This document shows positions 24,140-33,673 of a stretch of 37,592 bases of DNA, piece after piece. The stretch is from Terriglobales bacterium (GTDB lineage: Bacteria; Acidobacteriota; Terriglobia; Terriglobales; Acidobacteriaceae), in NCBI GenBank assembly GCA_025936825.1, contig JAICSO010000035.1:1-37592 (forward strand). Reading direction: 5' to 3'. A program made the translations under genes and the position numbers. Under the pieces are notes generated by a model, which saw only the letters and a list, made by a program, of their open reading frames with translations, was not told the origin of the DNA and did no database searches. Numbering within the stretch: position 1 is the first letter of the stretch; each line of letters opens with the position of its first letter.

Positions 24140-24156
24140 TTGCAACTCAGTTGCAA
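24140..24156 (+). promoter_or_regulatory. Palindromic operator, TTGCAAC-N3-GTTGCAA
   Basis: A perfect 7-3-7 palindrome (TTGCAAC, TCA, GTTGCAA) lies 22 bases before the first start codon of the iron operon and directly after the predicted promoter, where a bound repressor would block transcription. The shape suits a dimeric metalloregulator. The TGCAA half-site resembles some Fur-family boxes (for example TGCAAATNATTTGCA of alphaproteobacteria) more than the classical DtxR box, but the DtxR domain encoded in this operon is also a candidate. Confidence 0.6.
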
Positions 24157-24177: not shown

Positions 24178-25425
24178 GTGCTTCAAGCCTTTATCATCAC
24201 CCTTCGCGAGGGGGTAGAAGCTGCCCTGATCGTAGGAATCACCCTTGCTTATTTGAACAAGATTCAGCGCACCGACTTGCGAAAGTCGGTGTATGCGGCC
24301 CTCGCGGCTGCGTTCGTCGCTAGCATTGGCGTTGCCATTGCGCTCTCCCGTCTCGACTTGAACGAAGACATCTTCGAAGGCTGGGTCATGCTGGGCGCGG
24401 CCTTTTTCGTGGTCACCATGATCATTTTCATGATGCGGACGGGCCGCAAACTCAAAGGCGAGATCGAAGGTAAGATCGGATCTCTTGCCGGGCGCGGATC
24501 GCAACTGGGCGTGTTTCTCTTCGTCTTCTTAATGGTGCTCCGCGAAGGTGGGGAAACAGTGCTGATCCTCTCGGCGGTCAAGTTGGAGTCGACCGCGCTG
24601 ATGAGTTTCATCGGAACGCTGCTGGGAGTCTTTGCGGCCGTGCTGTTTGGGGTGATGTTTATCAAGGGCAGCGTGCGCATCAATCTGCAAAAATTTTTCC
24701 GCTTTACGACGGTAATTCTGTTTTTTGTCGCGGCGCAGCTTGTGATCTCGGGTCTGCATGAGCTTTCCGAAAATGGGGTGCTTCCCTCCTCCAAGCGTGA
24801 GATGGCGCTGATCGGACCGATCGTCACCAACGAGTGGTTCTTCTTTGTGACGATTGTCGCGCTTGCGGGACTGATGGTCCTGTTCGACGCTCGCCGCCGA
24901 CAGCCTCAAGCGCTCCCCGGTGCTGGCGCAGAACGCCGTAAGGCACTGTGGAGCGCGCGGCGCGAGCGCCTGTGGATGGTGTCGGTCTATGCGACGTCAT
25001 TCCTCTTCATCTTGCTGGTCACTGCGGAGTTCATCTACGCAAAGAGCGTGAACGAGCTCTCGCCTGCGACTCCGGTCAGCTTCAGCAACGGCGCGGTGAG
25101 CATTCCCCTGGCGCAGGTTTCGGATGGAGATTTACACCGCTATGTTGCGCGGGAAAACGGAACTGATGTCCGTTTCCTGCTCTATAAGAAACCGGACGGC
25201 AAGGTTGTAGCGGTGTTCGACTCGTGTCAGATTTGCGGTCCAGTGGGCTTTTTCAAAGGACCGAGCGGGATCGTCTGCAAAAACTGCGCCGCCCCGATCA
25301 ACTCGCAATCCGTGGGCACACCCGGCGGCTGCAATCCGGTACCGCTAAAGTCCGATTCGACCTCTGACGCCATCGTGATCGAGGAAGCCGACCTGCTCTC
25401 TGGCGCGTCGATGTTCCAACACTGA
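24178..25425 (+). CDS. FTR1-type iron permease fused to DUF2318 Cys-rich domain
   Basis: A 415-residue membrane protein. Residues 1-235 form an FTR1/EfeU-like permease with both REGxE iron-binding motifs (REGVE 10-14, REGGE 122-126) in membrane helices. After another helix (about 265-290), residues 295-415 match DUF2318, a domain of iron-transport loci with C350-x2-C353, C367-x2-C370 and the GGCNP motif (C385); it should face the periplasm and may handle a metal or Fe-S site. Start is GTG at 24178 with AAGGA upstream. The next gene starts one base after its stop. The layout resembles the Campylobacter FTR1/P19 iron locus, but no P19 gene is present here. Confidence 0.93.
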   Translation: MLQAFIITLREGVEAALIVGITLAYLNKIQRTDLRKSVYAALAAAFVASIGVAIALSRLDLNEDIFEGWVMLGAAFFVVTMIIFMMRTGRKLKGEIEGKIGSLAGRGSQLGVFLFVFLMVLREGGETVLILSAVKLESTALMSFIGTLLGVFAAVLFGVMFIKGSVRINLQKFFRFTTVILFFVAAQLVISGLHELSENGVLPSSKREMALIGPIVTNEWFFFVTIVALAGLMVLFDARRRQPQALPGAGAERRKALWSARRERLWMVSVYATSFLFILLVTAEFIYAKSVNELSPATPVSFSNGAVSIPLAQVSDGDLHRYVARENGTDVRFLLYKKPDGKVVAVFDSCQICGPVGFFKGPSGIVCKNCAAPINSQSVGTPGGCNPVPLKSDSTSDAIVIEEADLLSGASMFQH

Positions 25426-25426
25426 A

Positions 25427-26680
25427 ATGTTCGTCCGCCTCGTTTACGAATCCTTCCGCCGTCAGACCCGGCGCAAAGCCCTGGTTGCCGTGGCTGTGAC
25501 TTTCGGAGCGGCGGTATCGACGGCCATGATCGGAATTGCCACCGGCATCGGCGACAAGATCACGCATGAGCTGCGGAATTACGGGGCCAACCTCATCGTC
25601 ACGCCGGACTCGGACAGTCTTGATGTCGAGATCGGCAGCGTGAACTTGAAGCCGGCGTCCGGTGGCGCATATCTCGACGAAGGTGCGCTCCCGCAGATCA
25701 GAGGAATTTTCTGGGGCAACAATATTGCTGCCTTAGCGCCTGAGCTGCCGGTAAACGTGGATGCCGGCGGGCGCGAGGTCACGCTTGTCGGCACCTACTT
25801 TTCGAAAACATTGACGCTTGGTAAGGACCAATTCACTACTGGGGCGCCTTCGACTTTTCCCTGGTGGAAGGTGAAGGGTAATTGGCCTAAAGACGACAGC
25901 ACAGATCTTCTCGTGGGTGAGAAGCTGGCCGAGTCCCTCAAGTTTCAGCCGGGATCGGAGATTACTCTCGCCGGAACTCCTCATCGCGTGAGCGGGATTT
26001 TGTCTACAGGTGGCAACGAAGATGGCCAGATCGTCGCGCCGTTGAATGTGGCGCAGACCTTGGCCGGTGTTCCCGGAAAGCTTCGCACGGTTTACGTCAG
26101 CGCCTTACTGAAACCGGAGGACGCGTTCGCGCGCAGAAACCCGGATACCCTGAGTCCTGCCGAGCGCGATCGCTGGTACTGCACTCCATATCCTCAATCG
26201 ATTGCGTTGCAACTGACCGAAGCCATCCCGCACTCTCATGCCGAACAGATACGCCAGGTGGCACAGAACGAGGGTACGATTCTCACACGTATCGAAGGCC
26301 TGATGCTGCTGATCACTCTGGCCGCGCTACTGACCTCAGGCCTTGCAGTGTCGGCCGCAATGGCAACGGCGATGTTTGAGCGTCGAGTGGAAGTCGGACT
26401 GATGAAGGCTCTGGGCGCCGGACACTTTCCGCTCTCCATGATCTTTATCACCGAGTCGGTGCTCATCGCCTGCATCGGCGGGCTGATCGGATTTGCCATC
26501 GGCGCACTGCTCGCAAAGGAGCTGGGGCAAGCAATTTTCGGTTCGCAGATCGCGGTTCAGCCGGTGCTCTTCCCGGTGGTGATTGCGCTGGCAATTGGCG
26601 TGACTTTCGGCGGGAGCGCGGTGGCAATTCGGCGCGCCGTGAAGTACGATCCCGTGCTCGCCTTGCGAGGTGAGGCATGA
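25427..26680 (+). CDS. FtsX/MacB-type ABC permease, iron operon
   Basis: A 417-residue ABC permease of the MacB/FtsX type: one N-terminal membrane helix (about 20-42), a large periplasmic domain (about 45-290, starting HELRNYGANLIVTP), then three C-terminal helices with the coupling motif FERRVEVGLMKALGA and the family ending VKYDPVLALRGEA. This type usually does not import solutes in the classical way but transmits ATPase motion to the periplasm. It begins one base after the FTR1 gene and overlaps the next permease by four bases, so the three are co-translated. It probably pairs with the next gene as a heterodimer. Confidence 0.93.
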   Translation: MFVRLVYESFRRQTRRKALVAVAVTFGAAVSTAMIGIATGIGDKITHELRNYGANLIVTPDSDSLDVEIGSVNLKPASGGAYLDEGALPQIRGIFWGNNIAALAPELPVNVDAGGREVTLVGTYFSKTLTLGKDQFTTGAPSTFPWWKVKGNWPKDDSTDLLVGEKLAESLKFQPGSEITLAGTPHRVSGILSTGGNEDGQIVAPLNVAQTLAGVPGKLRTVYVSALLKPEDAFARRNPDTLSPAERDRWYCTPYPQSIALQLTEAIPHSHAEQIRQVAQNEGTILTRIEGLMLLITLAALLTSGLAVSAAMATAMFERRVEVGLMKALGAGHFPLSMIFITESVLIACIGGLIGFAIGALLAKELGQAIFGSQIAVQPVLFPVVIALAIGVTFGGSAVAIRRAVKYDPVLALRGEA

Positions 26681-27789
26681 GGAGCGGTACGAAGACCGCG
26701 ATGTATTTCCGCATGCTTTATCGTGCGGCCATGCTGCGGAAGGGCCAAGCTGCCTCAGCTTTGACGGCCATCATCGTCGCGGCTGCTGCCGCCACCGCGA
26801 TGCTGAATCTCTACGTGGATGTCCAAGCCAAGCTGCGCAAGGAATTCCGCAATTTCGGCGCGAACATCGTGGTGCAGTCCAAATCGCAGCAAGGATTCAG
26901 TCCTGCAGAGTTGCAGACGCTCAAATCTTCCGTTGGGAATCACGGCCTCGCAGTTCCCTTCTCTTATGCGGTGGCGCGCGATGAGCGGGAGCAGGCGGTA
27001 GTGGCAGTCGGAACGGATCTCGATCTTGCGCGCAAACTGAATCCTTGGTGGTCAGTTTCTGCGTGGCCGGCCGCAAGTGGTCAGGCGCTCGTGGGAGTAC
27101 GAGCGGAACGTGTCCTAGGCTCATCCGACAAGGCGTTTACGCTTTCATTTGAGGGTAAGCGCCTTCAACTGCAACAAGCGGGAACCGTGCGCACAGGTGC
27201 AGGCGAAGACAGCCGGGTTTACATTTCACTTCCCCAATTCCAGGCGTGGACGGGTCTCGGGCCCACCGCGTTTGAGATTGCAGCTTCGGGAACATCGGAC
27301 GAGGTCAACGCCCTGCTTCACAAACTTCAGCAGACGCTTCCAACGGCTGACGTTCATGCGGTTCGACAAGTTACAGAGGGGGAGGCCAACGTTCTCGGCA
27401 AGACGCGCTCGACACTTCTCTCGTCGGCAGCGTTCATCGTATGCACGGCTGCGCTGTGTGTTCTCGCCACGCTCATGGGATGGGTCTTCGATCGGCGCCG
27501 CGATTTCGCGATCATGAAGGCACTCGGCGCGTCGGACGGGTTGATCGCCATGTTCGTGGCGGGAGAAGCTGCAGCGCTCGCTTGTGTTGGCGCGATCGCA
27601 GGCTTCGCAGCAGGTATCGGTATCGCTGCGCTGATTGGACGCTTGAACTTCAACGCTCCCATTTCACCGCAAGTCAGAGTCTTCCCGGCGGTGCTCATCG
27701 GTGCGCTGGTGGTGACGCTTGTGGCTACGCTGCTGCCGTTGCGATTGCTGCGGCGAATCCAGCCAGCTATGATTTTGAGGGGAGAGTAA
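26677..27789 (+). CDS. Second FtsX/MacB-type ABC permease, iron operon
   Basis: A 370-residue permease with the same plan as its neighbour: N-terminal helix (about 22-45), periplasmic domain beginning KLRKEFRNFGANIVVQ, and three C-terminal helices around FDRRRDFAIMKALGASDG and LLRRIQPAMILRGE. Its smaller periplasmic domain and divergent sequence suggest a distinct subunit of a heteromeric transporter. The ATG overlaps the preceding stop (ATGA, 26677-26680); an ATG at 26701 is a second possibility. The stop shares a base with the ATPase start (TAATG). Confidence 0.92.
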   Translation: MRSGTKTAMYFRMLYRAAMLRKGQAASALTAIIVAAAAATAMLNLYVDVQAKLRKEFRNFGANIVVQSKSQQGFSPAELQTLKSSVGNHGLAVPFSYAVARDEREQAVVAVGTDLDLARKLNPWWSVSAWPAASGQALVGVRAERVLGSSDKAFTLSFEGKRLQLQQAGTVRTGAGEDSRVYISLPQFQAWTGLGPTAFEIAASGTSDEVNALLHKLQQTLPTADVHAVRQVTEGEANVLGKTRSTLLSSAAFIVCTAALCVLATLMGWVFDRRRDFAIMKALGASDGLIAMFVAGEAAALACVGAIAGFAAGIGIAALIGRLNFNAPISPQVRVFPAVLIGALVVTLVATLLPLRLLRRIQPAMILRGE

Positions 27790-29012
27790 TGATCCGTCTC
27801 AACCATGTCAGCCGCCTGTATCCCGCTCGCGCCGAGGCTCCGGGCGGCATGATTCGCGCGCTCGACGACTTCTCGCTGCACGTACAACCCGGCGAATGGA
27901 TCGCCGTAATGGGACCATCGGGTTCCGGAAAATCCACTTTGGTAAACCTGATTGGCTGCCTCGATCGCCCCAGTTCGGGCGAGATCTGGCTGGATAGCGA
28001 AAATGTCGCTGGACTGGGGAACACGGAACTCAACCGCGTGCGCGCGGAGAAGATCGGGTTCATCTTCCAGCAATTTCACTTGATTCCATATCTTTCCGCG
28101 CTCGAGAACGTCATGCTTGCGCAATATTTCCACAGCATGACCGACGAGCAAGAGGCGTTGGACGCGCTAACCCGCGTGGGATTGAAAGACCGCGCTAACC
28201 ACCTCCCTGCGCAGCTTTCTGGCGGCGAGCAGCAGCGCGTGTGCATTGCGCGGGCGCTGATCAACGATCCCAAAATCATTCTGGCTGACGAACCTACCGG
28301 CAATCTCGACGCGATGAACGAGGAGATCGTCATTGGCCTATTGCGCGATCTTCATGCCCAGGGACGCACGATCATCATGGTGACGCACGATCCGGTTGTG
28401 GCGCGACTTGGCGATCGCCGAATCGAGCTTCACCACGGCAAGATCGCGGCGCAGGAAGTCTTCGCGATGGCGGACGAAGAACAATTCGATGAAGTGCTCG
28501 AAGAACTCTGGGTTTTGGAGGAGCACGGCCAGTCGGCAGAAATCGAGCGCATGGAAGTGCATGGCGCGCTTCCGGTGAGCTTGGCAGTCGAGAAGATGCG
28601 CGAGATGGGACTGGTTACTACCTCGCCTCACCCGCCGGAAACACACGATCACAGGCCATTTGTTAATCCGTGCCACGACGCTCTGAAGCCGGCAGGCGTC
28701 TCCGTCGGCGACGGCAGCATGGTGGTGCAGTTAACCGACCGCGGCCGTCAGAAGGCGGGAGACATCATTCGACGTCATCGGTTGGCAGAGCGCCTGTTCA
28801 CCGATAGCCTTGCCCTCGACAGTGAAACCGAGATCGAGCAGCAGGCCTGCAAGTTTGAGCACATCCTCTCGCCGGAAGCGACCGACAAGATCTGCACCTT
28901 CCTGAACCATCCCAAGACCTGTCCACATGGCGCGCCAATTCCTCCGGGCCAGTGCTGCGGCATTGCACAACCAATGGCTACTGCGATAGGCCGATCGGAA
29001 CGGGTGCAATAA
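27789..29012 (+). CDS. ABC ATPase fused to a DtxR/IdeR-type metal-dependent repressor
   Basis: A single 407-residue frame. Residues 1-225 are a LolD/MacB-type ATPase: Walker A GPSGSGKS (42-49), Q-loop Q94, signature LSGGEQQR (143-150), Walker B IILADEPT (163-170), H-loop H200. Residues 228-390 match the DtxR family: a first helix [15 protein letters not shown], a probable helix-turn-helix (about 248-278), then [25 protein letters not shown] and [11 protein letters not shown], and CPHGAPIP. Likely metal ligands are H330, E334, C354, E357 and H358; the Cys favours iron over manganese. There is no C-terminal SH3-like domain. An internal ATG (28467) with AGGAAG eight bases upstream could give the repressor alone. 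Confidence 0.93.
28453..28469 (+). promoter_or_regulatory. Possible internal ribosome binding site and start codon
   Basis: AGGAAG (28453-28458), eight bases, then an in-frame ATG (28467-28469) lie exactly at the border between the ATPase and DtxR parts. Translation from here would give a free 181-residue repressor beginning [14 protein letters not shown], a natural DtxR-family N-terminus. Whether it is used is not known. Confidence 0.4.
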
Positions 29013-29014
29013 AC

Positions 29015-29815
29015 GTGGCGCCCACGATTGGAGTCTTCGACTCCGGCTTTGGCGGCCTGACCGTACTTAAAGCTTTACTTGAAGTCATTCCACAGTCCAA
29101 CTATCTGTATTTCGGCGACACTGCCCGACTTCCGTACGGGTCGAAATCGGTACAGACGGTTGCGAGGTATGCCTGCGAGGCGGCGAGATTTCTTGAACAG
29201 CAAGGCGCCGAAATGCTGGTGATTGCGTGCAATACGGCCACTGCACTTGCCCTGCCCCAGATCAAAGAAGCTGCGTCGGTGCGGGTGCTCGGAGTGGTGG
29301 AACCCGGGGCCCAGAGCGCGCACGCGGCTTCGAAATCGGGAAGAGTTGTAGTGATCGGAACCGACGCCACGGTTTCCAGTCACGCCTACCAGAAAGCACT
29401 TGCTTCTCTGAAAATCGAAGCGCGTGAGAAGGCTTGTCCTTTGCTGGTTCCGCTGGTTGAAGAAGGATGGGTGGATCATCCTGTGACCGAGCAGGTCGCG
29501 AGCATCTACCTGCAGGAAGCATTCAGCGACGGCTTCAGTTCCGCTGATGTCCTGCTGCTTGGGTGCACGCATTATCCGCTCATCAAGCCTGTGCTGCGGC
29601 GTGTAGTTCCGACTACGGTCACTCTGGTCGATTCGGCGGAATCAACGGCGCTAGCGGCGCGTGAACTTGTGCGTTCAACGTCGGAATCCAACTCTCAGGA
29701 ACGTTCTGAATTGCGCTTCTTCGTTACAGATTCCGCCGAAAAATTCAAACGACTGGGCCAGCAATTTCTGTGCAGGCCGATTAGCAACATCACGCACATT
29801 GATCTGAAGGAATAA
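29015..29815 (+). CDS. murI: Glutamate racemase
   Basis: A 266-residue cofactor-independent racemase that makes D-glutamate for peptidoglycan. The signatures are GVFDSGFGGLTVL at the N-terminus, YFGDTARLPYGSK, the first catalytic Cys in VIACNTATALALP, and the second Cys in LLLGCTHYPL. I choose the GTG at 29015, two bases after the ATPase stop, because it gives the normal length and N-terminus; an in-frame ATG upstream overlaps the ATPase gene. It is therefore probably translated together with the iron operon. It converges with the cytochrome gene only four bases away. Confidence 0.95.
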   Translation: MAPTIGVFDSGFGGLTVLKALLEVIPQSNYLYFGDTARLPYGSKSVQTVARYACEAARFLEQQGAEMLVIACNTATALALPQIKEAASVRVLGVVEPGAQSAHAASKSGRVVVIGTDATVSSHAYQKALASLKIEAREKACPLLVPLVEEGWVDHPVTEQVASIYLQEAFSDGFSSADVLLLGCTHYPLIKPVLRRVVPTTVTLVDSAESTALAARELVRSTSESNSQERSELRFFVTDSAEKFKRLGQQFLCRPISNITHIDLKE

Positions 29816-29819
29816 GGGC

Positions 29820-31436
29820 TCAATATCTGGCTTCAGCATGCGCCAACACGATCGCCGTAGCCTGCGGAGCCGAGTCGTAATATCCCACGAAACGCGCCGT
29901 CTCGAAAGATTTGTACGAAGCCAGATTGTGCGCCCAGCGGTATCCGATCGGCTGATACCAGAGCTCAGCACTGATTTGGAACGGCCCCTGCGAGCCGTGT
30001 GTATCGATGGAATAGCGCACCGTGTCAGCCCCGCCTACGAAATTCGGATCGCCGGAAGCGTCTCCGATAACCGCCACGTCCGGGTCGGCGTTCTCCTTGT
30101 TGAAGCCGGACGGCAGCAAGCGATTGTCTTTCAAGGAGCCAACTGCGGCTGCTAGGCCTGTTGTCACTTTTCCTTCCGAGTCCTTAAGAATGGGCTCGTA
30201 AATCTCGACTTGGTCGCTGCTGGTGATCTCGCGAAAATGCGGCTCAAAGCGAAGCGCGTCGAGATCATTCACGTTGCTTTCAATCGAGCCATTCGCATTC
30301 AGCGCTCCGGACTCGAATACAGTTTTGCCGTCCCGGTCTTTTATCAGAACATGCAACCAGGCGCGACGTGACGGGAACGCGGTGGGGAGCTTATGCCCTG
30401 TGAGGTTCTCCACCACAACATCCAGACTGAGTTTGCCGGCTTCCGCGCTAAGGTTTCCAATGCTCACGCGGGCCGCCTGGGTTTGGAGAAACTCCTCGGT
30501 CCGATTCGCCTCTTCCGTTAGTTCGTTTGGCAGCGCGGTTACGCCGAGTTCGTCGCGATGCTGGTTGAGCAAGCCGAGCACAAAAAAGTTGCCACCGGGA
30601 AAAGTATGCTGGTGCATTCCCGTCCGCGGCACCCCCAGCACAGCCGTAATGTGTACCGGTTCGTGAACTTCGGGCATATGGCATGCCTGGCAGGTGTAGC
30701 GCTGCGGGTAGTCGCTGTGCAACCACTCCTGATAGGGCACCTGCTCGGGAAATGTGCCCAGCACTTTCCCGCCGGGCGCCAGGGATTTCGTGTACAGCGT
30801 GTGGCAGGTCGCGCAAAGAGCGGCGTCGCGAATATGTGCGGCCTCGGTGGGCCGAAAGCCGCCAGTGGAGGTCTGCATGATGTGAGCGCGAGCGTTGTCC
30901 ACGTCAAAGGGCCCGAACTCCGGATGATCATGTTCCGATTTCGGCGTTTCAATGAGAAAACCGCCATTGAAGCTTTGTCGCGTTCCAAAGTTGCTGTTCG
31001 AAACCTGATGACAAATCGAGCAGGTGACGCCATCCTCTGCAAACGCCGTCTTCTTAGGATCGCGATCGAACGGAAGATTGGCGAATACCTGACCCAACTT
31101 CCCTTCCAGCTTGCGTTGATATCGCGCCACGGGCATGTGGCAGTCGGCACAGCCGTCCTCCACTTCGGCCGCCGACTCGGGATGATCCATGTCCTCACGG
31201 CGAACGCTCGCCTGCCAATACGGATCGCGTGCGGAATTCGCCATAATGCTGGCGCGCCAATCAAAACCGATGGAAATGTCTTTTCCCGATGCAGTCTTCA
31301 GCTGGTTGTGGCACACCTGGCAGCGATCCGAAGTGTGAAATTCTGGCTTAGTTTCCTTTTGCGGACCAGCCGCGGGCAGCAGCACCGGCAGGAGCACGAT
31401 GATCAGAAAGGCGCAGAATCCGGCACGTCTCCGCAT
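29820..31436 (-). CDS. Exported pentaheme c-type cytochrome
   Basis: A 538-residue protein with a signal peptide (hydrophobic AFLIIVLLPVLLPAA after basic residues) and five CxxCH heme-binding motifs at residues 39-43, 96-100, 139-143, 208-212 and 249-253. Additional His residues could serve as distal ligands. The C-terminal half, with VENLTGHKLPTAFPSRRAWLHV, is a beta-rich part seen in many multiheme cytochromes. The hemes suggest a periplasmic or outer-membrane electron carrier. ATG 31436 overlaps the stop of the upstream gene by one base (TGATG), so the two are translated together. Precise family unknown. Confidence 0.9.
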   Translation of the reverse strand: MRRRAGFCAFLIIVLLPVLLPAAGPQKETKPEFHTSDRCQVCHNQLKTASGKDISIGFDWRASIMANSARDPYWQASVRREDMDHPESAAEVEDGCADCHMPVARYQRKLEGKLGQVFANLPFDRDPKKTAFAEDGVTCSICHQVSNSNFGTRQSFNGGFLIETPKSEHDHPEFGPFDVDNARAHIMQTSTGGFRPTEAAHIRDAALCATCHTLYTKSLAPGGKVLGTFPEQVPYQEWLHSDYPQRYTCQACHMPEVHEPVHITAVLGVPRTGMHQHTFPGGNFFVLGLLNQHRDELGVTALPNELTEEANRTEEFLQTQAARVSIGNLSAEAGKLSLDVVVENLTGHKLPTAFPSRRAWLHVLIKDRDGKTVFESGALNANGSIESNVNDLDALRFEPHFREITSSDQVEIYEPILKDSEGKVTTGLAAAVGSLKDNRLLPSGFNKENADPDVAVIGDASGDPNFVGGADTVRYSIDTHGSQGPFQISAELWYQPIGYRWAHNLASYKSFETARFVGYYDSAPQATAIVLAHAEARY

Positions 31437-32584
31437 CACCAACCCTCGGTAATCTTTCCGTCCTGCCAATCCCAAAGGAGGTAGAACTCTAGTTGGATGG
31501 AGCGTCCGGCGGTGTTGGTCATGGGAACCCGCACGCCCAGGTCGCCGCGAATATGCTGGCGATGGCTGATCGTCACCTGCATCTGCGGCAAGATGTCCCA
31601 ATCGGTTTTTGCCCCATCGACCAGGTCGCGATCGGCGATGAACTCCACCATCGGAGACCAAAGTCGTCCCATGCCATGATCCGAAGCGAAGCTCTGGCCA
31701 AATGCTGTGTTGAAGAAGATAGATTGGGGCGCGATCTGGGTATGCCTTGGCAGGTCGGCACCGAGTTGCGTCTGTATGAACGTATTACTTCGAAGCAGCT
31801 GATCGAATGCGGCAAACGTTTCAAAAGTTGTAGTGCCGCTGCCGAAACCGCGACTCCTGTTTCCCGTGGGAAGAAGCACGCTTCCTTGCAAACTCAGAAT
31901 CGATCCCGAGCGAAGGCTCGAAAACATCACGCGCTTGATGCCTAGAGTCGTGTCGCCGACACCTCCATACCAGATGTGGTTCTGGTCTTGGAAAGTGAGA
32001 GGCACGTCGACTTCAATCTGATTCTTCACTCCGAATCGCTGCTCGTGAATGACGTGCCCGCTGACGCTCGGACCGTCAGTAGCATTCGCTGAGGTTGAGA
32101 TGACGACTTCGTCTTCCGGATAAGCTTTCTCCGTTACGAGTGCCCGGGGCAAATTCAATTCGCCACGCGGCCAGCCTTTGCCATGGCAAAAAGAACGCAG
32201 ATAGGAGATGACTTTATCAATGTCCTGCGAGCTCAGCGCCTCGCCGAATGAGGGCATGATCTGCGCGAAGCCGCGGTACGGACCTCCATTGGTGATAACG
32301 GCTTTGTAAGCGATGTCGAGTTCGGCGGTGGTTTGATCGCAGCGCGTGAAATCGGGGAAGCTGTCGGGGCGTTCAAAGACCGTCGTGCTTGGTTCACCCC
32401 CGCGGCCATCGGAACCATGACAGGCTACACAGGCCGATTGGTAAATGCGTTTTCCCTGCGCGATGGAATCCGCCGAAGAGTCCACGGCCTGCGCTGAATT
32501 GGCGATCTGGCCCGCTGCAGTGCATGCGAACATGAGCCCAACTGCTGCGACAAGGCAGACACCTGCGTTCAGCGTGCGACACAT
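31436..32584 (-). CDS. Monoheme cytochrome c fused to a probable outer-membrane barrel
   Basis: A 382-residue exported protein. After a signal peptide (VCLVAAVGLMFACTAAGQ) comes a cytochrome c domain with C52-x2-C55-H56 and a probable Met ligand at M110 (IMPSFGEALSS). Residues about 165-382 are beta-strand rich with alternating polar and hydrophobic residues and end in a Trp (KITEGW), as outer-membrane beta-barrels often do. The start ATG at 32584 lies after the tonB terminator; an in-frame ATG at 32650 lies within the terminator hairpin and is unlikely. Directly coupled to the pentaheme gene. Confidence 0.8.
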   Translation of the reverse strand: MCRTLNAGVCLVAAVGLMFACTAAGQIANSAQAVDSSADSIAQGKRIYQSACVACHGSDGRGGEPSTTVFERPDSFPDFTRCDQTTAELDIAYKAVITNGGPYRGFAQIMPSFGEALSSQDIDKVISYLRSFCHGKGWPRGELNLPRALVTEKAYPEDEVVISTSANATDGPSVSGHVIHEQRFGVKNQIEVDVPLTFQDQNHIWYGGVGDTTLGIKRVMFSSLRSGSILSLQGSVLLPTGNRSRGFGSGTTTFETFAAFDQLLRSNTFIQTQLGADLPRHTQIAPQSIFFNTAFGQSFASDHGMGRLWSPMVEFIADRDLVDGAKTDWDILPQMQVTISHRQHIRGDLGVRVPMTNTAGRSIQLEFYLLWDWQDGKITEGW

Positions 32585-32630
32585 TCTCGGCAACTTGCTC
32601 CGATGGATTTCGGGACGCGGGGTTGAACAG

Positions 32631-32660
32631 GAAAAGAAAAAGCCAGCCATTCGGCTGGCT
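32631..32660 (-). terminator. Intrinsic terminator of the TonB-like gene
   Basis: On the - strand AGCCAGCC (32653-32660) and GGCTGGCT (32641-32648) pair around a 4-base loop and are followed by TTTTTCTTTTCC. It lies 18 bases after the TonB-like stop and separates that gene from the cytochrome pair. Confidence 0.9.
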
Positions 32661-32677: not shown

Positions 32678-33673
32678 TCAGTAAAGCCGGAACTGGACCT
32701 CTACGTTGATGGCAACTGCTACCGGGCGGCCATCTTTCTGGGCCGGCTCAAACTTCCACTGATTGACGGCTTCAATTGCCTTTTCATCGAGACCGAGACC
32801 AAGGCTGCGAGCCACGCGGATGTCACGCGGCTTGCCATCGGGGCCCACGATAACGCTAAGTACGCAGGTTCCCTGGTACTTGGCCTTACGGGCTTCTTCC
32901 GAGTACTCGGGATCGGGGCTGAAGATCGCTTTGGGTGCGCTGACGCCGCCACCCACACGGAACACGCCGCCACCGATTCCACCGCCGCGGCCTTCACCGA
33001 CGCCGGGCCCCGTACCTGACCCAATTCCACCACCTGCACCGGAACCAATTCCTGAGCCTGATCCGGTACCGTTCGAAGGCGGGCCGGAAGGCATCACCGC
33101 AGTGGGGTTGCCAAGGTTGGGAGCATTCATCGCGAGATGGACCTGCGGAGGCATAACCACCGTGGGCTCGACTGCGAGCTTCGGATGATCATTCCGAACC
33201 ACGATCGCAGGCGGAGTAACTTGCTCCATGGCCGGCTTAGGGATATTTCCCTTCGGTGCCTGGAACTTGTCACGATCTCCTCCACCACCACCGCCGCCAG
33301 ACTGCGTCTTAGCAGGCTTCATGATGGGCACGTCCAGGTTGGGAGCGATCAAAGTGACGGTTTCCTTCGCCTTCTCAACTACCTTACGACCGAACAAGAT
33401 CGTGCCGCCGATCATCAAGGCAAGAAGCACGATGTGCGAAATCAGCGAGACAGTCGCACCTTTTCCTTTGTAGTTGTAGAAGCCCCAGATGTCCTTTACG
33501 GGAACTGGCTTCGAGGTCAAGACCAGTGGCGGAAGCTTCTCGGGGAAGAAGGTTTCCTTGAAGTTTCGACGAAGCGAGGACCAGGTTCCCTGCTCCGAGC
33601 CTTTCGGCATCAGCAGGTGCAGTTCTGGTTCCGGTTCGGTGGTGTGCGGCGGCTTAAATTCCAATGTGGCCAT
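32678..33673 (-). CDS. TonB-like energy transducer with Gly-rich linker
   Basis: A 331-residue protein with an unusually long cytoplasmic N-terminus (about 70 residues), one membrane helix (about 73-95), a periplasmic linker (about 115-245) rich in Gly, Ser and Pro rather than Pro/Lys repeats, and a C-terminal TonB domain (about 245-331) with YSEEARKAKYQGTCVLSVIV, GPDGKPRDIRV and AVNQWKFEPAQKDGRPV. TonB proteins pass proton-motive energy to outer-membrane receptors. No ExbB/ExbD gene is visible in the window. It stands alone behind its own terminator. The upstream region is shared with ileS, divergently. Confidence 0.93.
   Translation of the reverse strand: MATLEFKPPHTTEPEPELHLLMPKGSEQGTWSSLRRNFKETFFPEKLPPLVLTSKPVPVKDIWGFYNYKGKGATVSLISHIVLLALMIGGTILFGRKVVEKAKETVTLIAPNLDVPIMKPAKTQSGGGGGGGDRDKFQAPKGNIPKPAMEQVTPPAIVVRNDHPKLAVEPTVVMPPQVHLAMNAPNLGNPTAVMPSGPPSNGTGSGSGIGSGAGGGIGSGTGPGVGEGRGGGIGGGVFRVGGGVSAPKAIFSPDPEYSEEARKAKYQGTCVLSVIVGPDGKPRDIRVARSLGLGLDEKAIEAVNQWKFEPAQKDGRPVAVAINVEVQFRLY

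Follow-up and report, generated by a model that had tools for sequence, protein, structure and literature searches.

An ABC transporter ATPase fused to a DtxR-type metal-binding domain in iron operons of Acidobacteriota

In the genome of a Terriglobales bacterium (GCA_025936825.1), an ABC ATPase and a DtxR-type metal-binding domain are encoded as one polypeptide within an iron operon. The window, which is the whole stretch of DNA analysed, is 37,592 nucleotides long. The fusion is real, recurs widely within one phylum, and joins known parts in a new way. No description of an ABC ATPase-DtxR fusion was found in the literature, as judged by titles and the beginnings of abstracts, with few subscription papers covered. 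From its conserved residues and genomic setting, we lean towards reading the fusion as a metal-gated ABC ATPase, in which the C-terminal domain would sense metal and dimerise but no longer repress genes.

Extent, domains and ligands of the fused frame

The stop-free frame occupies positions 27789–29012 of the forward strand, with an ATG at 27789 and a stop codon at 29010–29012, and encodes 407 residues. The uninterrupted frame, the complete LolD/MacB-type ATPase, and the DtxR-family domain claimed by the preliminary description are all borne out. The ABC ATPase comprises residues 1–225 (27789–28463, +), of which residues 25–170 match the Pfam family ABC_tran with an E-value of 1.9e-35. Walker A and B, the signature, the Q-loop, and the H-loop are all present. 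Across 68 fusion rows, Q94 of the Q-loop, LSGGE, DEP, and H200 are invariant, and Walker A is conserved at 90% or above. The nearest profiles are those of MacB, LolD, and FtsE, although none of the 25 best matches listed reaches its curated cut-off.

The remainder of the protein is predicted to consist of a degenerate winged helix followed by a metal-binding and dimerisation domain. Helix 1 (residues 226–246; 28464–28526, +) bears Glu235 and Glu238 at the positions of DtxR Met10 and Arg13. It leads into the degenerate helix-turn-helix (HTH) core (residues 247–277; 28527–28619, +) and the wing region (residues 278–312; 28620–28724, +), the latter having a His/Cys-rich insert (His281, His286, His288, Cys295, and His296) confined to same-family fusions. 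The DtxR-type domain spans residues 316–390 (28734–28958, +) and contains His330, Glu334, Cys354, Glu357, and His358. Its C-terminal end, residues 369–390 (28893–28958, +), hosts a Cys/His cluster made of Cys369, His374, Cys378, His380, Cys389, and Cys390. Residues 316–385 match Fe_dep_repr_C (PF02742) at 91 bits (cut-off 27; E 4.1e-26), and the C-terminal 181 residues retrieved IdeR from the PDB sequences (phmmer, E 4.6e-15). The motifs RHRLAERLF, CKFEHILS, and CPHGAPIP lie at residues 329–337, 354–361, and 378–385, respectively. A chance domain match is ruled out by these E-values together with the conservation. The weak point of the earlier claims is the HTH region: PF01325 matches residues 233–280 with 14.5 bits (cut-off 26) and an E-value of 0.041. 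A Pfam scan found no third, SH3/FeoA domain in the fusion.

The AlphaFold model of the protein has a mean pLDDT of 82 and a pTM of 0.59, and the relative orientation of its domains is not fixed. A helix (residues 226–245) directly follows the last ATPase strand and is succeeded by a helix at residues 263–272, strands at 276–280 and 311–315, and helices at 317–339, 346–357, and 362–371 as in DtxR. Modelling of the C-terminal part, which the preliminary description had proposed, thus gives a winged-helix-like order of helices and strands plus DtxR-like helices. The model of a distant form of the fusion resembles that of the window protein. When the full model was used for a fold search, the best 50 of 1758 matches were all ABC ATPases, including the MJ0796, MacB, and LolD structures, and the search is therefore uninformative on the C-terminal part. 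MetN chains aligned with the model over about 360 columns only at an rmsd of 11 Å.

We then inspected the ligand positions in two sets of fusions, namely 85 of the same family (near rows) and 11 of other classes (distant rows). Cys354, Glu357, His358, and Glu334 are identical in all 85 near and all 11 distant rows. His330 is found in every near row and in 7 of the distant ones, the other four having Gln. Of these residues, the Cys, Glu, and His correspond to the primary site of DtxR-type repressors, and the other His and Glu to the ancillary site. Glu235 and Glu238 of helix 1 are present in 85/85 near and 10/11 distant rows; they align with Met10 and Arg13 of DtxR, so the Met10 position is a Glu in the fusion. 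The ligand roles at these two positions, like the ligand numbering, are presumably those of DtxR and MntR. No near row that extends this far deviates at the six residues of the Cys/His cluster (83 or 85 of 85 rows), nor does any of the 11 distant rows. At the place of CPH, the canonical acidobacterial DtxRs have DPHG (19/19), with an Asp at the Cys378 position. Each residue of the wing insert occurs in 84 or 85 of the 85 near rows, and the insert is a gap in all 11 distant rows. PF02742 was matched in 68/68 fusions, and the fusion carries the sole PF02742 domain of the window's genome.

The DNA-binding part behaves differently. PF01325 is recognised in 5 of 68 fusions at E-values up to 0.1 (best 0.017) and in 5 of 25 FeoB-linked kin (best 0.0027), versus 17 of 19 canonical acidobacterial DtxRs used as control (best 1.9e-18; 19 proteins from 20 stretches, as L210 gave none). 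Profile-profile comparison indicates that the N-terminal part of the fusion's DtxR region is still distantly homologous to DtxR winged helices. For near-row pairs (400 of 1378 sampled, 122 to 276 kept per region, dS near saturation), the median dN/dS is 0.075 for the ATPase, 0.097 for helix 1, 0.205 for the HTH core, 0.209 for the wing, and 0.082 for the metal domain; the HTH core value is thus well below 1. The protein divergence of the HTH core relative to the metal domain is 1.87 in near rows, 2.08 in distant rows, 1.80 in FeoB-linked kin, and 1.42 in canonical DtxRs. The corresponding ratio of column identity is 0.74 to 0.88 in near rows, no worse than the 0.59 to 0.71 of canonical DtxRs. 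As this ratio resembles that of canonical DtxRs, the wear of the HTH appears moderate, and something still seems to hold its core. By these sequence comparisons, the DNA-binding part of the fusion is degenerate, while the metal ligands and the Cys cluster are nearly or fully invariant.

Recurrence of the fusion and of its operon

The preliminary description had raised the questions of whether the fusion recurs in acidobacterial iron operons and whether related genomes have a stop and start between the two parts. From a scan of named genome records, we retained the best 80 of 563 relatives. In 79 of them, the ATPase and the DtxR part share a single stop-free frame (three of these, L076, L093, and L116, are clipped at one end by their contigs); in the 80th, L118, the contig ends at residue 259. 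Among 396 evenly drawn genomes of the phylum Acidobacteriota, to which this sample is restricted, at least 22 have the fusion: seven genomes of the same family, counting the window's own, and at least 15 from other classes. Outside the family, about the best 40 places were opened, of which 15 are fused and 25 free-standing. The two parts were encountered as adjoining genes in none of 41 further loci opened. As relatives hold both parts in one frame and split pairs are absent from these loci, the fusion is neither a chance event nor an assembly error, and a sequencing error or merging of genes is ruled out. Separate internal translation of the DtxR part was considered as well and is not supported: residue 227 is Met in 69/85 near rows, and Met is not among the common letters there in distant rows. 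The DtxR part matches 57 plasmid records, none over 80% of the query; among the matches listed, 27 of 30 are annotated as metal-dependent transcriptional regulator.

The fusion gene is the last of four. The first (24178–25425, +) encodes an FTR1 iron permease fused to an FtrD-like (DUF2318) domain (E 5e-40 and 5e-28, respectively). It is followed by two FtsX/MacB-type permeases, one at 25427–26680 (+; FtsX E 6e-13, MacB_PCD E 9e-14) and the other at 26677–27789 (+; FtsX E 2e-17), which overlaps the fusion start by one base. The domain order in the window is therefore FTR1-DUF2318-FtsX-FtsX-ATPase. This gene order is complete in 66 of the 80 relatives, and the other 14 show its later part. Six further same-family genomes have the full order, and so do 15 distant genomes as far as the stretch reaches. 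Directly 3′ of the fusion lies a glutamate racemase-like (MurI-like) gene (29000–29815, +), and a like gene follows in 42/80 relatives. Farther on are a frame with weak matches to multihaem cytochromes (29820–32650, −; MtrC/MtrF-like), noted together with a cytochrome c having a longer C-terminal part, and a TonB-type protein at 32678–33673. No RNA family was matched in the window at gathering scores.

The operon also exists without the domain. Using FtsX1 as the query in the same 396 genomes and opening the strong matches, we found 23 operons, 21 of them from the same family, whose ATPase frame (249 to 432 residues, stop to stop) has no DtxR match. Five further FtsX1 regions showed no ATPase: four are at a contig end, and the fifth, L183, has FTR1-FtrD, FtsX1, and FtsX2 but no ATPase found in its 9-kb stretch. 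In one domain-less operon (L179:122-1135), the ATPase frame ends in a different Cys-bearing tail (CPNCGMNLFKKHEH), which may be an alternative metal tail. Because the same operon lacks the domain in 23 genomes, the DtxR-type domain is a module and not part of the engine. In the ATPase tree, which took in 19 of 23 domain-less operons, those of the same family lie next to the fused rows of that family; two state changes are needed, and gain and loss are indistinguishable. The simplest, though unproven, history is a single old fusion followed by losses.

From its gene order, the window operon looks like the acidobacterial version of a system from Campylobacter. The Campylobacter 1649-1656 genes comprise FTR1, a DUF2318 protein, two ABC permeases, and an ATPase in the same order, according to the portions of the paper available (PMC6083913). 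Similarly, the accessible text on Bifidobacterium bfe/sif describes an FTR1-type permease followed by two FtsX-like permeases and an ATPase (PMC5449479). Different from both, FTR1 and DUF2318 are one protein in the window, the periplasmic protein P19 (PF10634), which belongs to the Campylobacter system, has no match in the window's genome at E-values up to 0.01, and a glutamate racemase-like gene follows the operon in place of a thioredoxin or FMN protein. In the parts available, these two papers mention a plain ATPase where the window has the fusion (PMC6083913, PMC5449479).

FeoB-linked kin and the operator upstream of FTR1

In 24 of 26 loci, the free-standing kin of the domain are preceded by a feoB gene of the same strand; the query for these neighbourhoods was the FeoB of one kin locus, L160. 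All 25 kin scanned have a FeoA domain. In the alignment of 25 of the 26 loci (L155 was left out), five of five Cys positions shared with the fusion are invariant, and the profile match has an E-value of 2.8e-47. A tree of the domain alone, built from 83 columns, places 54 fused rows on one side of a branch and the 26 free-standing kin on the other; this branch has a support of 91/85 (not starred) and is found in 88% of 200 bootstrap trees. The domain thus has its closest relatives among the DtxR-FeoA proteins that Acidobacteriota and Pelobacter encode next to feoB. Like the fusion, they have the same Cys positions, the Glu pair of helix 1, and a poor match to the HTH profile; unlike it, they are free-standing, bear FeoA, and follow feoB. 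Following feoB in 24/26 loci, these kin too would be partners of an iron-transport NTPase. The DtxR-FeoA proteins after feoB (among L120-L160), with their Cys cluster and barely recognisable HTH, may themselves act on FeoB and not on DNA. A DtxR-FeoA protein of Pelobacter is annotated as metal-dependent transcriptional regulator. FeoB_C has no match in the window's genome.

Just before FTR1, at 24140–24156, lies a perfect 8-1-8 palindrome, TTGCAACTcAGTTGCAA, which is a candidate operator of the Fur-family type. Of the 68 fused operons of the same family, 65 have a box of one of two types ahead of FTR1: TTGAAATTCATTTTCAA-like boxes in 58 and boxes of the window's type in 7 (14 of 17 positions or better). 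In 5200 shuffles, these types appeared 0 and 10 times, respectively. Within the fused group, both arms of the box change together, TTGAAATT-ATTTTCAA giving way to TTGCAACT-AGTTGCAA in the window and in six loci close to it. When up to two mismatches are allowed, the window box occurs at five places in the window's genome, and the reversed control at none. These are the window's own, one abutting the likely start codon of a fur gene, one before the next gene, and two without evident link to iron (one at the start of a contig, the other in front of a reductase-like gene). The copy at the fur gene, on contig C15, is a variant of the window-type box with two mismatches; the genome encodes three Fur proteins. 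A classical Fur pattern has a single match in the window, which is at chance level. The predicted operator upstream of FTR1 points to Fur. DtxR/IdeR operators are of a different type, and repression of its own operon by the DtxR-type domain is disfavoured by the Fur-type box.

Less in line with control by Fur, 12 of the 13 fused operons from other classes show neither box. Of the domain-less operons, 22 of 23 carry an Rrf2/IscR-like motif, GACGACCAATTTAGTCC; L161 has a Fur-type box in addition, and L179 has neither. The GACGACCAATTTAGTCC motif is also present in one of the 68 same-family fused operons. A swap of operators accompanies the domain, with Fur-type boxes where it is fused and GACGACCAATTTAGTCC where it is missing, and it may have been a single event in one clade.

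A proposed metal-gated ATPase and its alternatives

In DtxR, the bound metal pins helix 1 to the dimerisation domain, which positions the two DNA-binding heads. As helix 1 is joined to the ATPase in the fusion, the two ATPases would be positioned by this same lock. Specifically, two copies of the fusion would pair through the DtxR-type domain, and Fe(II) from the cytoplasm (alternatively Mn(II), or an Fe-S cluster carried by the Cys residues) would bind between helix 1 and the dimerisation domain. The movement that spaces two DNA-binding heads in DtxR would then space two ATPase subunits, and a Fur-family protein would control transcription of the operon. By analogy with MetN and ModC, an ample supply of cytoplasmic iron would most likely inhibit the motor as feedback; the direction of this control is nonetheless a guess, because the substrate of the ABC part is not established even in Campylobacter, according to the available portion of that paper (PMC6083913). 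In MetN, which has a C2 domain, and ModC, the ligand-bound C-terminal dimer restrains the ATPases, as described in the accessible part of PMC10710835. Both have a C-terminal dimerising ligand sensor on an ABC ATPase, which is the working likeness proposed here. Their sensor domain and permeases are different and their ligands are methionine or molybdate/tungstate; by Pfam, the C-terminal domain of the fusion is DtxR-type and not homologous to the MetN/ModC regulatory domain. That a small partner can influence the NTPase of an iron transporter is shown by FeoA, which slows GTP hydrolysis in a FeoA-FeoB fusion, according to the part of PMC8980893 available. The preliminary description had offered a metal sensor gating the ATPase as its alternative. 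This reading fits best with the degenerate HTH, the retained ligands, and the Fur-type box, with gating itself inferred.

The primary claim of that description, an iron repressor within the fusion, stands as regards a conserved DtxR-type metal domain in an iron operon and is not supported as regards repression at DNA, though some DNA binding may persist. A bifunctional protein that drives the transporter and, with metal bound, represses its own or other genes would tie regulation to transport. It would accord with the profile alignment of the N-terminal part to DtxR winged helices, the winged-helix-like order in the model, the fairly conserved HTH core of near rows, and a genome in which no other PF02742 protein was found. 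We nevertheless consider it quite unlikely, given that the HTH profile is recognised in 5/68 fusions (best E 0.017) versus 17/19 controls, and that the operator is of the Fur type, is found again beside a fur gene in this genome, and differs from DtxR/IdeR operators; moreover, L161 has the same kind of box without having the domain.

Two other explanations keep the domain on the transporter. Cys369, Cys378, Cys389, and Cys390, perhaps with Cys354, may hold an Fe-S cluster or Zn, in which case the domain would report cluster status or oxygen instead of Fe(II). These cluster Cys residues are the same in all near rows reaching them, in 11/11 distant rows, and in 25/25 FeoB-linked kin, the canonical DtxRs have Asp at the Cys378 position (19/19), and FeoC, a small partner of FeoB, is described in the accessible part of PMC10710835 as having an oxygen-damaged Fe-S cluster. 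Such a switch is possible but doubtful, as the classical DtxR ligands are conserved too, which makes a mononuclear site at least as likely. The least probable explanation in our view is that the domain tethers two ATPases or buffers iron near the permease and does no gating. The Pfam family is named for dimerisation, the wing insert is rich in His and Cys, and the same operon does without the domain in 23 genomes, but a mere tether would need no ligands, and the domain is kept about as tightly as the ATPase.

Returning to metal gating of the ATPase, we regard a broader proposal as evenly balanced, namely that a fold which served DtxR as a switch for genes has come to switch a transporter. The acidobacterial branch with the Cys cluster and the worn HTH would serve iron-transport NTPases, either beside FeoB or fused to the ATPase of FTR1/FtsX systems, with a metal or an Fe-S cluster opening or locking the motor. 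Accordingly, the label of DtxR repressor may be wrong for some of the proteins encoded next to feoB. Operons of both kinds, with the domain and without it, occur naturally, so gating can be tested directly, and the fusion offers a handle on the role of the ABC part in the widespread FTR1/DUF2318 systems. Accounts of iron control in bacteria centre mostly on gene repression; if the motor of a transporter does contain a metal sensor of its own, feedback would be fast and act at the protein level.
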